In this document: positions 7,637-16,703 of the stretch, in pieces
Numbering within the stretch: the first letter of the stretch is position 1
Layout: every line of letters begins with the position of its first letter
Source of the DNA: a virus
Reading direction: 5' to 3' (one strand)
Virus record (IMG/VR): IMGVR_UViG_3300029448_000466
Location: 1 to 23,217 of that record
Length of the DNA: 23,217 nucleotides
Translations under genes and position numbers: made by a program
Notes under the pieces: model-generated
The model's input: only the letters and a program-made list of their open reading frames with translations
Told to the model about the DNA's origin: nothing
The model's database searches: none

Positions 7637-7666
7637 GTGTCTCAATGTGTCCTAAAGTGTCCTGTT
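7637..7666 (+). repeat. Three 10-bp phased repeats after integrase (candidate arm-type sites)
   Basis: GTGTCTCAAT, GTGTCCTAAA and GTGTCCTGTT run without gaps, each starting with GTGTC. They begin three bases after the integrase stop and end about 40 bases before the tRNA-like core. Helical phasing next to the core fits integrase arm sites or a regulator array; neither is proved. Confidence 0.5.
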
Positions 7667-7706
7667 TCACACACGAGTTTAACAATAAATGGCAGAAAAC
7701 AGCCAA

Positions 7707-7747
7707 GGCCTCGTGGTGGAATGGTAGACACAAAGGACTTAAAAGCC
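7707..7747 (+). other. Putative attP core: 5' half of tRNA-Leu(UAA)
   Basis: The sequence follows a bacterial tRNA-Leu from its first base: acceptor GGCCTCG, TG, D-stem GTG and CAC (7716-7718, 7729-7731) around GAATGGTAGA, then the anticodon loop CTTAAAA with UAA anticodon (7740-7742). Similarity stops about three bases after the loop; there is no variable arm, T-arm or matching acceptor 3' strand, so it is a fragment. Lying just downstream of the integrase, it is best read as the phage attachment core. Known related phages (P-SSP7) carry about 42 bp of tRNA-Leu in this place. Confidence 0.75.
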
Positions 7748-7787
7748 GATTCAACCTTACTACACATCCGTAACAACATTTAAAACT

Positions 7788-7844: not shown

Positions 7845-8669
7845 ATGAGTAAAGACACAGCCCTACTAATTAGTGTCCCAACTGGAGCAGAAATGGCAAC
7901 TCTTGCAGAGCAGATTGAACTTGAATTGAACATGGTACAAAGCGGCATCGACAGATACAACAAGCAGAGAACCGACCTTGAAGGTAAGACACTAAGCAGT
8001 AAGACATTACACGGTAGAACTATCATCGCAGGTGTAGTAGAACCTGTTGCCGATGGTATTCGTGACCTCCTCAAAGAGAAAACATCTAACCGATCTACGG
8101 TAAAACTTCTCAAAAACTGCAAACCAAACACCACAGCGCTACTTTCTTTGATAGGAGTGGTTGACACAATCTCAAACTGGTCTACACTAATAAGATCAGC
8201 GGGTAGAGTCGGCATCATGGTAGAGACTCAGTTAAGATTAGATGCTTGGCTCATGGCAGATCGGGAGACTGCTAAGAACCTAATAAAAATGGCTAACCAA
8301 AAGTCTGATAGCGGTTACGACCACAAGAGACACGGCCTAAACTTCAAGATTAAGAAAGATAAAGTAGAAGTCCCATCATGGACTAGCGAAGAACGCATTC
8401 ATATCGGACTAAAGCTAATCAACATCATCATAGAACGAACAGGGATCGTTAAGTTAGAACGCAGGTCACACCGAAGGCACACTGTAAACTACTTAGCGGC
8501 AACTGAAGATACACTAGAGTGGATCAAAGCGTTTAACGAGACACACGAGAAAGCTTCACCAAGGTTTGCGCCTTGTGTAATTGAACCAAAGGATTGGACA
8601 TCGTTTTACGGTGGTGGTTATCACAGTAACTACGTACACGACCTATCCTTCATGCGAGTACACGGTTGA
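7845..8669 (+). CDS. T7-type RNA polymerase, N-terminal part
   Basis: This 274-residue product matches the N-terminal region of single-subunit phage RNA polymerases: the helical TLAEQIELELNMVQSGIDRY segment, VEPVADGIRDLL, and the conserved junction CVIEPKDWTSFYGGGY, equivalent to the VVPPKPWTGITGGGYW of T7. In T7 this region binds the AT-rich upstream promoter and the nascent RNA. The frame then ends at TGA 8667-8669, where the intact enzyme would go on to the thumb and palm. The continuing homology is found at once in the -1 frame. So this is the first fragment of a split or frameshifted gene. The ATG at 7845 has a poor ribosome site. It could work only together with the downstream part. Confidence 0.85.
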   Translation: MSKDTALLISVPTGAEMATLAEQIELELNMVQSGIDRYNKQRTDLEGKTLSSKTLHGRTIIAGVVEPVADGIRDLLKEKTSNRSTVKLLKNCKPNTTALLSLIGVVDTISNWSTLIRSAGRVGIMVETQLRLDAWLMADRETAKNLIKMANQKSDSGYDHKRHGLNFKIKKDKVEVPSWTSEERIHIGLKLINIIIERTGIVKLERRSHRRHTVNYLAATEDTLEWIKAFNETHEKASPRFAPCVIEPKDWTSFYGGGYHSNYVHDLSFMRVHG

Positions 8670-10333
8670 TGAGAAAATCAGTAGCAGAATATGTCGAGAA
8701 GTTAGAGAGCCTCGACTTGTCTACTGAATATAACTGTGTAAATTCTATACAAAAGACACCATGGAGAATCAATGGCTTCGTTTTGGATGTCATCAGGGCG
8801 GCATGGGAGAGTGGGCAAGAGTATGTAGGCTTACCCCCACGAGAGAACACACCGTTACCTGAGTATCCTTTTGATATAGACCCTTCCGAGTTTACCGAAG
8901 AACAGAAAAAAGAATTCAAAGATTTTAAAATACGCAGAGGTGCTATCCACAATTCAAATTGTCGTAGCATGTCTAGGCGTATACAAGTTGAACGTACTCT
9001 CCAGCTAGCTGAGGAATATAGAAGCATCGAGAATTTCTTCTACGTGTGGCAGTTAGATTTTAGGGGCAGAAAATATCCAGTAGAAAGTTTCCTTTCACCA
9101 CAAAATGCTGATTACAGCAAAGCTCTTCTGGAGTTTTCTCGCCCTGTTTTTATTAAAGACGACAGCGATGCACAATGGTTAGCCATACATGGCGCTAATG
9201 TGTTCGGTGTTGATAAGGTTAGCCTAGAAGATAGAGAGATGTGGGCATACCTGAATGTTGAGAATGCAGTAGCAGTCTACAACGACCCGCTTGGTTGCAA
9301 GTGGTGGCAAGAAGCAGACAAACCTTGGCAAGCACTGGCATGGTGTAAGGAATGGGCAGAGTATAACGAGGTACGCCTCAGAGGCATGGGGGAGTTCTAT
9401 GAGACACGACTTCCTTGTGCTAGTGATGGTTCATGTAATGGCTTACAGCACCTCTCAGCGATGCTCAGGGACTCTGAAGGGGGTCGTAGTGTAAACCTCA
9501 CACCTTCCGATGAGCCACAAGACATTTACTCTGATGTTGCAGAGAGAACTACAAGATTCCTAGAGCAACAAGACACAGAGGTAGCCAGACAGTTGCTTCG
9601 TGTGGGTATTTGTCGTAAGATATGCAAGCGTAGCGTGATGATAGTACCTTACAGTGGTACTCGCCATGCTTGTCGGAGTTACATACAAGAAGCTCTGGCA
9701 GAAAAGTGTTCTGATTTTAATCCCTTTGGTGATAGCTTGTTCCAAGCGTCAAATTACCTCGCTGGTTTTGTTTGGCAAGCCATCGCTGAAGTGATTAAGT
9801 CAGCATCCATCGTGATGTCTTACATTAAAAGCATCGCTCAGCTCTATGTCGAAGCTGACATTCCCCTCCAATGGACAACACCTACAGGTCTACTGATCGT
9901 CCAGAACTACGCTGAAGTTAAGTCAAGGCGTATCAAGACTCATCTCAACGGCTCACTTCTCAAGCTTAACTACAATGAGAAAGTGGATCGAACAATTAAC
10001 AATCGCAAAACTATCTCAGGTAGCTCACCTAACTTCATTCACAGTTTAGATGCGGCCGCTTTGACCCTGACTGTCAACGAATGTGTGAAGCAGGGCATCA
10101 CGGACTTTGCGATGGTTCACGATTCATACGGAACACACTCCCCAAACATGCCTTTACTCAACAAGGTACTGCGTCAGGAGTTTGTTACGATGTATGAAGA
10201 CCACGATGTACTGCAAAATCTCTACGATACCGCAGTATCTTCGTTACCAGAGGGAGTGGATGTACCACCCCCACCAACCAAGGGTGATTTGGATTTACAG
10301 GAGGTACTGCTAAGTGATTATTTTTTCGCATAG
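8669..10333 (+). CDS. T7-type RNA polymerase, thumb-palm-fingers part
   Basis: This 554-residue product carries all catalytic residues of the family. Numbered from ATG 8669: Asp253 in SDGSCNGLQH (T7 Asp537), Lys320 and Tyr328 in CKRSVMIVPYSG (T7 Lys631, Tyr639) and Asp485 in VHDSYGT (T7 Asp812). The C-terminus DYFFA matches the T7 end DFAFA, which is essential there. In the specificity loop, RIKTHLNGS aligns with T7 PIQTRLNLM, so T7 Arg746 is His here and Asn748 is kept, consistent with a different promoter. The start overlaps the stop of the N-terminal part (TGATG), which allows termination-reinitiation. Together with the upstream part the length (about 829) is normal for the family. Confidence 0.93.
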   Translation: MRKSVAEYVEKLESLDLSTEYNCVNSIQKTPWRINGFVLDVIRAAWESGQEYVGLPPRENTPLPEYPFDIDPSEFTEEQKKEFKDFKIRRGAIHNSNCRSMSRRIQVERTLQLAEEYRSIENFFYVWQLDFRGRKYPVESFLSPQNADYSKALLEFSRPVFIKDDSDAQWLAIHGANVFGVDKVSLEDREMWAYLNVENAVAVYNDPLGCKWWQEADKPWQALAWCKEWAEYNEVRLRGMGEFYETRLPCASDGSCNGLQHLSAMLRDSEGGRSVNLTPSDEPQDIYSDVAERTTRFLEQQDTEVARQLLRVGICRKICKRSVMIVPYSGTRHACRSYIQEALAEKCSDFNPFGDSLFQASNYLAGFVWQAIAEVIKSASIVMSYIKSIAQLYVEADIPLQWTTPTGLLIVQNYAEVKSRRIKTHLNGSLLKLNYNEKVDRTINNRKTISGSSPNFIHSLDAAALTLTVNECVKQGITDFAMVHDSYGTHSPNMPLLNKVLRQEFVTMYEDHDVLQNLYDTAVSSLPEGVDVPPPPTKGDLDLQEVLLSDYFFA

Positions 10334-10334
10334 T

Positions 10335-10354
10335 TTTCTAAAGTACCCATTGTG
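10335..10354 (+). promoter_or_regulatory. Putative phage RNA polymerase promoter, copy 2
   Basis: TTTCTAAAGTACCCATTGTG begins one base after the RNA polymerase stop and 58 bases before the ssDNA-binding protein gene. It differs from copies 1 and 3 by one base (CCCATTG for CCTATTG) and shares the following CCT with copy 1. This position corresponds to the start of T7 class II (DNA metabolism) transcription. Confidence 0.65.
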
Positions 10355-11007: not shown

Positions 11008-11368
11008 GTCAACCCTTGAAGAACGTGTTCAACGTAACCTCGACAAACGTGGGGTAACTTATGAGTATGAACCTTGTAAGTTGCCCTATGTTGTTGAACG
11101 TAACTATGTCCCTGATCTTCGTATCGGGGATATGTTCATCGAGATTAAAGGGTACTTCCGTCAAGACGCGCAACGAAAGATGCGTAACATGAAGGAGCAA
11201 CACCCTGACTTGGACATTCGCTTTCTATTCCAGAAGAACAACAGCACTGTGCAAGGAGCTAAGAGAAGAAAAGATGGAACGAAGATGACTTGTGCTGAAT
11301 GGGCAGAACGTCACAACTTCATTTATGCAGAGGGGATTATTCCAGATGAGTGGTTACGAAATACCTGA
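10991..11368 (+). CDS. Endonuclease I (T7 gp3-like Holliday-junction resolvase)
   Basis: A PDDEXK nuclease of the T7 endonuclease I family, which cleaves branched DNA and helps degrade host DNA. The N-terminal helix (TLEERVQRNLDKRGVTYEYE) supplies the first glutamate, YVPDLRI the aspartate (T7 Asp55) and FIEIKGYF the Glu-x-Lys (T7 Glu65, Lys67). I choose ATG 10991 rather than the in-frame TTG 10988 because AGGAGG lies about 10 bases before it. The 125-residue length is slightly short of T7's 149. It overlaps the preceding gene by 17 and the following by 23 bases. In T7 the lysozyme gene comes next; here that place is taken by a small unknown gene. Confidence 0.9.
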   Translation: MPQTSRSTLEERVQRNLDKRGVTYEYEPCKLPYVVERNYVPDLRIGDMFIEIKGYFRQDAQRKMRNMKEQHPDLDIRFLFQKNNSTVQGAKRRKDGTKMTCAEWAERHNFIYAEGIIPDEWLRNT

Positions 11369-11543
11369 GATAGATGATGAAGATCACATTATGTTTGAGG
11401 ATTACTTGGAACACAACATTGAAGCACAATGTGATCATGATCCAAGTGTGCAACGCTGTGATTGTAGGTATGAAGCATTTGAGAAACTTGAAAAAAGACG
11501 AAAAAAATTAGAGAGGAAATATGCAGCAACAGGCAGATGGTAG
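11346..11543 (+). CDS. Small charged protein between endonuclease I and primase-helicase
   Basis: A 65-residue protein with an acidic N-half (YEIPEIDDEDHIMFEDYL), a CDHD...CDCR segment with three cysteines, and a basic helix (FEKLEKRRKKLERKY). The frame is open earlier, but ATG 11346 with GAGGGG nine bases upstream is the best start. It overlaps endonuclease I by 23 and the primase-helicase by 23 bases. The cysteine/histidine cluster could bind a metal. No family recognised. Confidence 0.65.
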   Translation: MSGYEIPEIDDEDHIMFEDYLEHNIEAQCDHDPSVQRCDCRYEAFEKLEKRRKKLERKYAATGRW

Positions 11544-16683: not shown

Positions 16684-16703
16684 TTTCTAAAGTACCTATT
16701 GTG
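16684..16703 (+). promoter_or_regulatory. Putative phage RNA polymerase promoter, copy 3
   Basis: TTTCTAAAGTACCTATTGTG, identical to copy 1, lies in the 58-base gap between the nucleotide-metabolism genes and the virion block. The likely +1 G is 16701, leaving a 12-base leader with GGAG before the ATG at 16713. This corresponds to the onset of T7 class III (structural) transcription. Confidence 0.7.

Follow-up and report, generated by a model that had tools for sequence, protein, structure and literature searches.

A clade of uncultivated T7-like phages encodes its RNA polymerase as two separate genes

INTRODUCTION

T7-type RNA polymerases (RNAPs) are the model "single-subunit" transcriptases. 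In the T7 enzyme the C-linker spans residues 251 to 296, the C-terminal domain is taken as residues 300 to 883, and rigidity of the C-linker matters for the change from initiation to elongation (PMC3961267). A known exception to the single chain is N4 RNAPII, a natural heterodimer in which gp15 carries a truncated N-terminus, the thumb, and the DX2GR motif and gp16 carries the palm and fingers, and which uses the cofactors gp1 and gp2 (PMC4496689). PMC4299498 describes engineered T7 RNAPs divided into two to four pieces, with split points in five surface seams, that are active when the pieces are co-expressed. Here we describe the polymerase locus of IMG/VR virus record IMGVR_UViG_3300029448_000466, whose 23,217 bases, with a T7-type genome layout, were analyzed as a whole and are called the window below. 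The RNAP of this phage is very probably a coupled two-subunit enzyme, made as two proteins from two overlapping genes.

RESULTS AND DISCUSSION

The polymerase is divided between two overlapping reading frames at a domain border

Both polymerase genes lie on the plus strand. The N-subunit gene, which covers the promoter-binding domain and the C-linker, occupies positions 7893 to 8669 (258 aa from ATG 7893) and ends at the TGA of 8667 to 8669; from the alternative start ATG 7845 it would span 7845 to 8669 (274 aa). The C-subunit gene, with the thumb, palm, fingers, and specificity-loop region, runs from ATG 8669 to 10333 (554 aa), or from 8666 to 10333 (555 aa) if the alternative start TTG 8666 is used, and lies in the -1 frame relative to the N open reading frame (ORF). 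Both genes are linked by a TGATG stop-start overlap (8667 to 8671, plus strand), with ATGA, GTGA, TTGA, or TAATG as its counterparts in relatives. A first-pass annotation, made from the letters alone, had given the ORFs as 7845-8669 and 8666/8669-10333, together with the -1 frame and the TGA at 8667-8669, and these coordinates are correct. Its N-terminal ORF of 274 codons stands as an extent, but the protein probably starts at ATG 7893 (M17) rather than at ATG 7845, because M17 is invariant in aligned relatives, a GGAG lies upstream, and no usable earlier start is present in L188 and L232 (L-numbers are labels of clade relatives). The 16 codons before this probable start (7845-7892, MS-AT--LISVP) are kept in many relatives and absent in L188 and L232; the segment may serve as an alternative start, as an arm of an attachment site, or as a promoter.

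The N ORF matches Pfam RPOL_N (1.2e-12) and T7 RNAP residues 35 to 300, and the C ORF matches Pfam RNA_pol (3e-108) and T7 RNAP from residue 307 to the C-terminus. Alignment with T7 RNAP places the equivalent of P266 within the N ORF and those of D537, R627, K631, Y639, H811, and D812 all within the C ORF, with no residues lost at the junction, so the earlier statement that nothing is missing and that the catalytic residues are kept proves right. The two ORFs therefore carry the RPOL_N and RNA_pol domains and the catalytic residues of motifs A, B, C, and DX2GR by which the T7-like single-subunit family is recognized. Aligned with fused homologues, the break corresponds to T7 H300/S301, the C part covers T7 residues 301-883, and no conserved family residue is lost. 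Given the published domain limits of T7 RNAP, a break at 300/301 therefore cuts the enzyme at a domain border and leaves the C-linker with the N protein.

The split is conserved across the clade and both parts are under selection

IMG/VR was searched with both polymerase parts, and deeper searches used alignments and profile-based ORF classification. The first relatives, recovered with tblastn, change frame at the same residue as the window. Altogether 91 distinct junction sequences were found, including that of the window, and every one is split (91/91), which sets the clade apart from the one-polypeptide organization of the T7-like single-subunit family, N4 RNAPII being the known exception. 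No fused member inside the clade turned up across the IMG/VR scans. Split members share 50-99% identity with one another in their C parts, and the stop codon (TGA, TAA, TAG) and start codon (ATG, GTG, TTG) vary among the junctions; the break point is constant. The first-pass annotation had called the junction family-conserved and had proposed an alignment with relatives, and all 91 distinct junctions recovered are split, the split being kept in every clade member and none being intact.

Compared with five close relatives, the window shows ratios of nonsynonymous to synonymous substitution rates (dN/dS) of 0.05-0.13 in the N part and 0.03-0.06 in the C part, values which indicate that both halves are under strong purifying selection. 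These results bear on another explanation for the two frames, namely that an ordinary single gene was disrupted in the window contig, either by a sequencing or assembly error or by a recent inactivating deletion. The window frames do differ by a single base, and fused relatives carry the same domains in one ORF; the break, however, recurs in 90 other distinct junctions, down to approximately 50% protein identity and with differing stop and start codons, and purifying selection acts on both parts. A homopolymer error and a recent inactivating deletion, both of which the first-pass annotation had listed as readings, are therefore rejected, and we give them practically no probability. Sequencing error or a pseudogene is likewise ruled out by the conservation of the split together with the dN/dS values. 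Judged from sequence conservation, the split is real and not an error, and two separate, conserved genes, with selection on both, are established.

In a maximum-likelihood phylogeny built from the catalytic part, all split sequences occupy one side of a branch with a Shimodaira-Hasegawa-like approximate likelihood ratio test value of 100, in a quick search without bootstraps and with several long fused branches. A single origin is what this tree gives, and one change explains the split trait on it. Outside the clade, the polymerases compared, 26 from bacterial genomes and 7 from named phages, are all single ORFs, at most 46% identical to the split form. The same 26 prophage-like bacterial copies, being fused and outside the split clade, allow no host assignment.

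Junction anatomy favors stop-start coupling over frameshifting

Most junctions overlap by 4 nt (66 of 91: 57 ATGA, 7 TTGA, and 2 GTGA), another 14 of the 91 overlap by 1 nt (8 TGATG, the form found in the window, plus 6 TAATG), and the genes are separated in 11 of 91. One separated junction, that of L188, has a Shine-Dalgarno (SD) sequence and ATG after the stop, TAGGAGGTTAAATG; here the TAG stop is followed by AGGAGGTTAAATG, that is, AGGAGG plus the ATG of the second gene. A short tandem duplication of the junction in L073 (590-640) has moved the second start 22 nt downstream and left both genes intact. Larger stop-to-second-start distances are seen in L299 (214 nt), L238 (222 nt), L244 (310 nt), L315 (693 nt), L208 (924 nt), and L232 (978 nt). 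The gap in L315 holds a complete thymidylate synthase gene, thyX (1729-2421; Pfam Thy1, 1.1e-42), and that in L208 a DNA-methyltransferase-like ORF (475-1122). A small ORF (MSNWIATN...) is common to the insertions of L232 (2513-3492) and L244 (3181-3485) and has the same location in both, and the gaps of L238 and L299 likewise contain other ORFs. Because the halves can be separated by whole genes, they are two genes.

This variety matters for a second explanation, in which programmed -1 ribosomal frameshifting would fuse both frames into one polypeptide, alone or beside two separate proteins. Consistent with such a mechanism, the second gene is in the -1 frame in 84 of 91 junctions, and the second frame is open for 22-79 nt upstream of the stop in most of them. 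The -1 relation, however, is an automatic outcome of ATGA and TGATG overlaps. A canonical slippery heptamer (X XXY YYZ) lies in frame near the junction in only 2 of 91 cases, at unrelated positions, and folding of four junction RNAs against shuffles gave z values of 0.2, 0.3, 1.4, and 0.5, which, with pseudoknots outside the model, indicates no unusual structure. Moreover, in seven relatives the frames are related in ways that a -1 shift could not bridge, and in several of these entire genes separate the halves. The separated junctions, with TAG, AGGAGG, and ATG or with gaps of 214-978 nt holding other genes, therefore exclude frameshifting as the general mechanism, and we consider it very improbable. 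The first-pass annotation had already doubted it, and the lack of a conserved slippery heptamer, the lack of unusual RNA structure, and the unjoinable frames of some relatives agree with that doubt.

A stop-start overlap is the usual arrangement for translational coupling. Under this proposal, ribosomes would terminate on the TGA of the first gene and reinitiate on the ATG that overlaps or adjoins it; in most relatives an AGG Arg codon, doubling as part of an SD sequence, would assist. An SD scan finds GAGG, AGGA, or AAGG upstream of most second starts, partly formed by this Arg codon of the N protein. AGG is used at the junction Arg in 67 of 79 sequences (0.85), vs 20% of Arg codons in the same genes, and the junction Arg is the most AGG-rich of 19 conserved Arg columns (0.85; the next 0.64 and the rest at most 0.36), although these counts come from related, non-independent sequences. 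The enrichment supports, without proving, selection for a ribosome-binding site. In the window and some of its near relatives the junction Arg codon is CGA and the SD site is weaker: in the window the scan finds CGAG at 8655 to 8658 on the plus strand (GAG, a 3-base match), in place of the AGG codon that lies within GAGG or AGGA in most relatives.

Predicted folds and a proposed two-subunit enzyme

AlphaFold models of each half alone have mean predicted local distance difference test values of 88.8 (N) and 93.0 (C), and Foldseek matches both models to T7 RNAP in the PDB; both halves are thus confidently predicted to fold separately as T7 domains. The isolated N model (7893-8666) has a template modeling (TM) score of 0.85 to 1msw, an elongation complex, vs 0.46 to 1cez, an initiation complex. 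This elongation-like conformation of the free N half may be a preference of the predictor.

From these observations we propose that the first gene would supply the promoter-binding N-terminal domain and C-linker, that the second would supply the whole catalytic domain, and that the two proteins would pair through the usual interface between these domains to form an active polymerase. The assembled enzyme would transcribe the phage's own promoters through a 20-bp motif, TTTCTAAAGTACCYATTGTG. This promoter-like repeat occurs at 2670-2689, 10335-10354, and 16684-16703, three copies vs 0.01 expected by chance. The copy at 10335 to 10354 (plus strand), presumably a recognition site of the window's polymerase, lies directly after the C-subunit gene, and the same placement is seen in close relatives. 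A two-subunit polymerase made by stop-start coupling was the third reading of the first-pass annotation, and it is the one supported here. Weighing against it are the weak SD before the second ATG in the window (GAG) and the fact that every clade member is a metagenome contig with no isolate among them; that translation is coupled, that the subunits meet at the native interface, and that the enzyme uses the 20-bp motif are steps that we infer.

The two proteins might also divide their work differently. The catalytic protein alone could be the core polymerase, with the N protein a separable initiation or takeover factor that takes part in only some of the cycle. Genes lying 214-978 nt apart in some members would permit unequal amounts of the two proteins, and the free N domain is modeled in an elongation-like rather than an initiation-like fold (TM 0.85 to 1msw and 0.46 to 1cez). 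The T7 N-terminal domain, however, is established to refold and remain in the elongation complex (PMC3961267), and most members keep the 1- or 4-nt overlap, favoring linked synthesis; we give this arrangement only a slim chance. Somewhat less improbable, yet still unlikely, is that the N protein is a sigma-factor-like initiation subunit that places the catalytic protein at promoters and can then dissociate, be replaced, or vary in amount. If that were so, these phages would tune transcription by a subunit swap used by no known T7-type polymerase, and the insertion of genes between the halves in some members would be a means of uncoupling both.

Genome context of the locus

Gene order in the window is terminase end, small early genes, a regulator-like gene, integrase, RNAP, single-stranded DNA-binding protein (SSB), endonuclease I, primase-helicase, DNA polymerase, exonuclease, portal, scaffold, capsid, and tail tubular proteins, where some names are backed by protein matches and others rest on position and reading. 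By protein matches and order, the RNAP, replication, and head-tail genes are in the T7-type arrangement of the Autographiviridae. The family is characterized by a single RNAP gene (PMC11092137), and the window has two, so in this respect the split clade departs from the published description. The largest contigs of the clade are approximately 40 kb.

Roseophages and pelagiphages carry a lysozyme gene between those for endonuclease I and primase; in the window none is evident in the corresponding interval (11368-11521). Downstream of the integrase, a tRNA-Leu-like stretch was spotted by eye at approximately 7705-7750; ARAGORN and Rfam found no tRNA there. Repeated GTGTCYYA words at 7637-7665 and 7873-7880 flank this stretch, and together they may represent an attachment site with arm sites, one arm lying within the 5' end of the RNAP ORF. 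GTCCCA in this attachment-like region is kept even in L011, whose upstream DNA is unrelated.

Significance

An entire clade whose enzyme is encoded by two genes, with the cut at the hinge of the promoter-binding and catalytic domains, breaks the single-subunit rule. It makes testable how promoter clearance proceeds when no covalent bond connects the C-linker to the catalytic domain, and it offers synthetic biology a split point that is natural and already tried by evolution. These phages may also be misjudged by gene callers and marker-gene surveys built around a single RNAP of ~800 aa.

Comparison with known systems

Among unsplit enzymes of marine and other Autographiviridae, the RNAPs of roseophages CRP-804 and CRP-125, pelagiphages HTVC121P and HTVC031P, Pseudomonas phage LUZ100, and Rhizobium phage Pasto have the same domains. 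Unsplit Autographiviridae RNAPs are encoded by one ORF of 808-841 aa vs two in the clade, and the best phage matches to the C part, found among them, are 37-42% identical. Integrase-bearing unsplit phages share the order regulator, integrase, RNAP, SSB, endonuclease I, primase, and DNA polymerase; closest in gene order are the roseophages and pelagiphages, in which one RNAP gene occupies the position of the window's pair.

N4 RNAPII of the Schitoviridae resembles the clade enzyme in that two adjacent genes jointly cover a T7-like polymerase. On a catalytic-domain profile, gp15 ends at position 162 and gp16 starts at 169, with weak profile scores that agree with PMC4496689. The N4 enzyme is thus cut after the thumb and DX2GR and before motif A, whereas the clade break lies ~165 residues earlier and leaves DX2GR in the C protein. 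The N4 N-terminal domain is truncated, whereas the window N protein is full length, covers T7 35-300, and yields a model matching the T7 N-terminal domain. N4 also belongs to a different phage family and genome type, and its genome encodes a giant virion RNAP besides. Because the break position differs, N4 RNAPII is rejected as the identity of the window polymerase. The first-pass annotation had thought a natural split enzyme would be new; N4 RNAPII is already a natural heterodimer (PMC4496689), but it is cut elsewhere. No published split outside N4-like phages was found in the open-access literature, most subscription journals not being covered. The earlier break and the different phage family therefore point to an independent invention of the same kind as N4 RNAPII.

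T7 RNAP itself is homologous to the window halves over nearly its full length, but is one chain. Since its engineered split forms work, assembly of the natural halves is plausible; the text of PMC4299498 names split points 67, 179, and 601, without naming 300/301, the natural break. The clade thus appears to hold, in a large group of uncultivated T7-like phages, a natural counterpart of the split polymerases engineered by hand.
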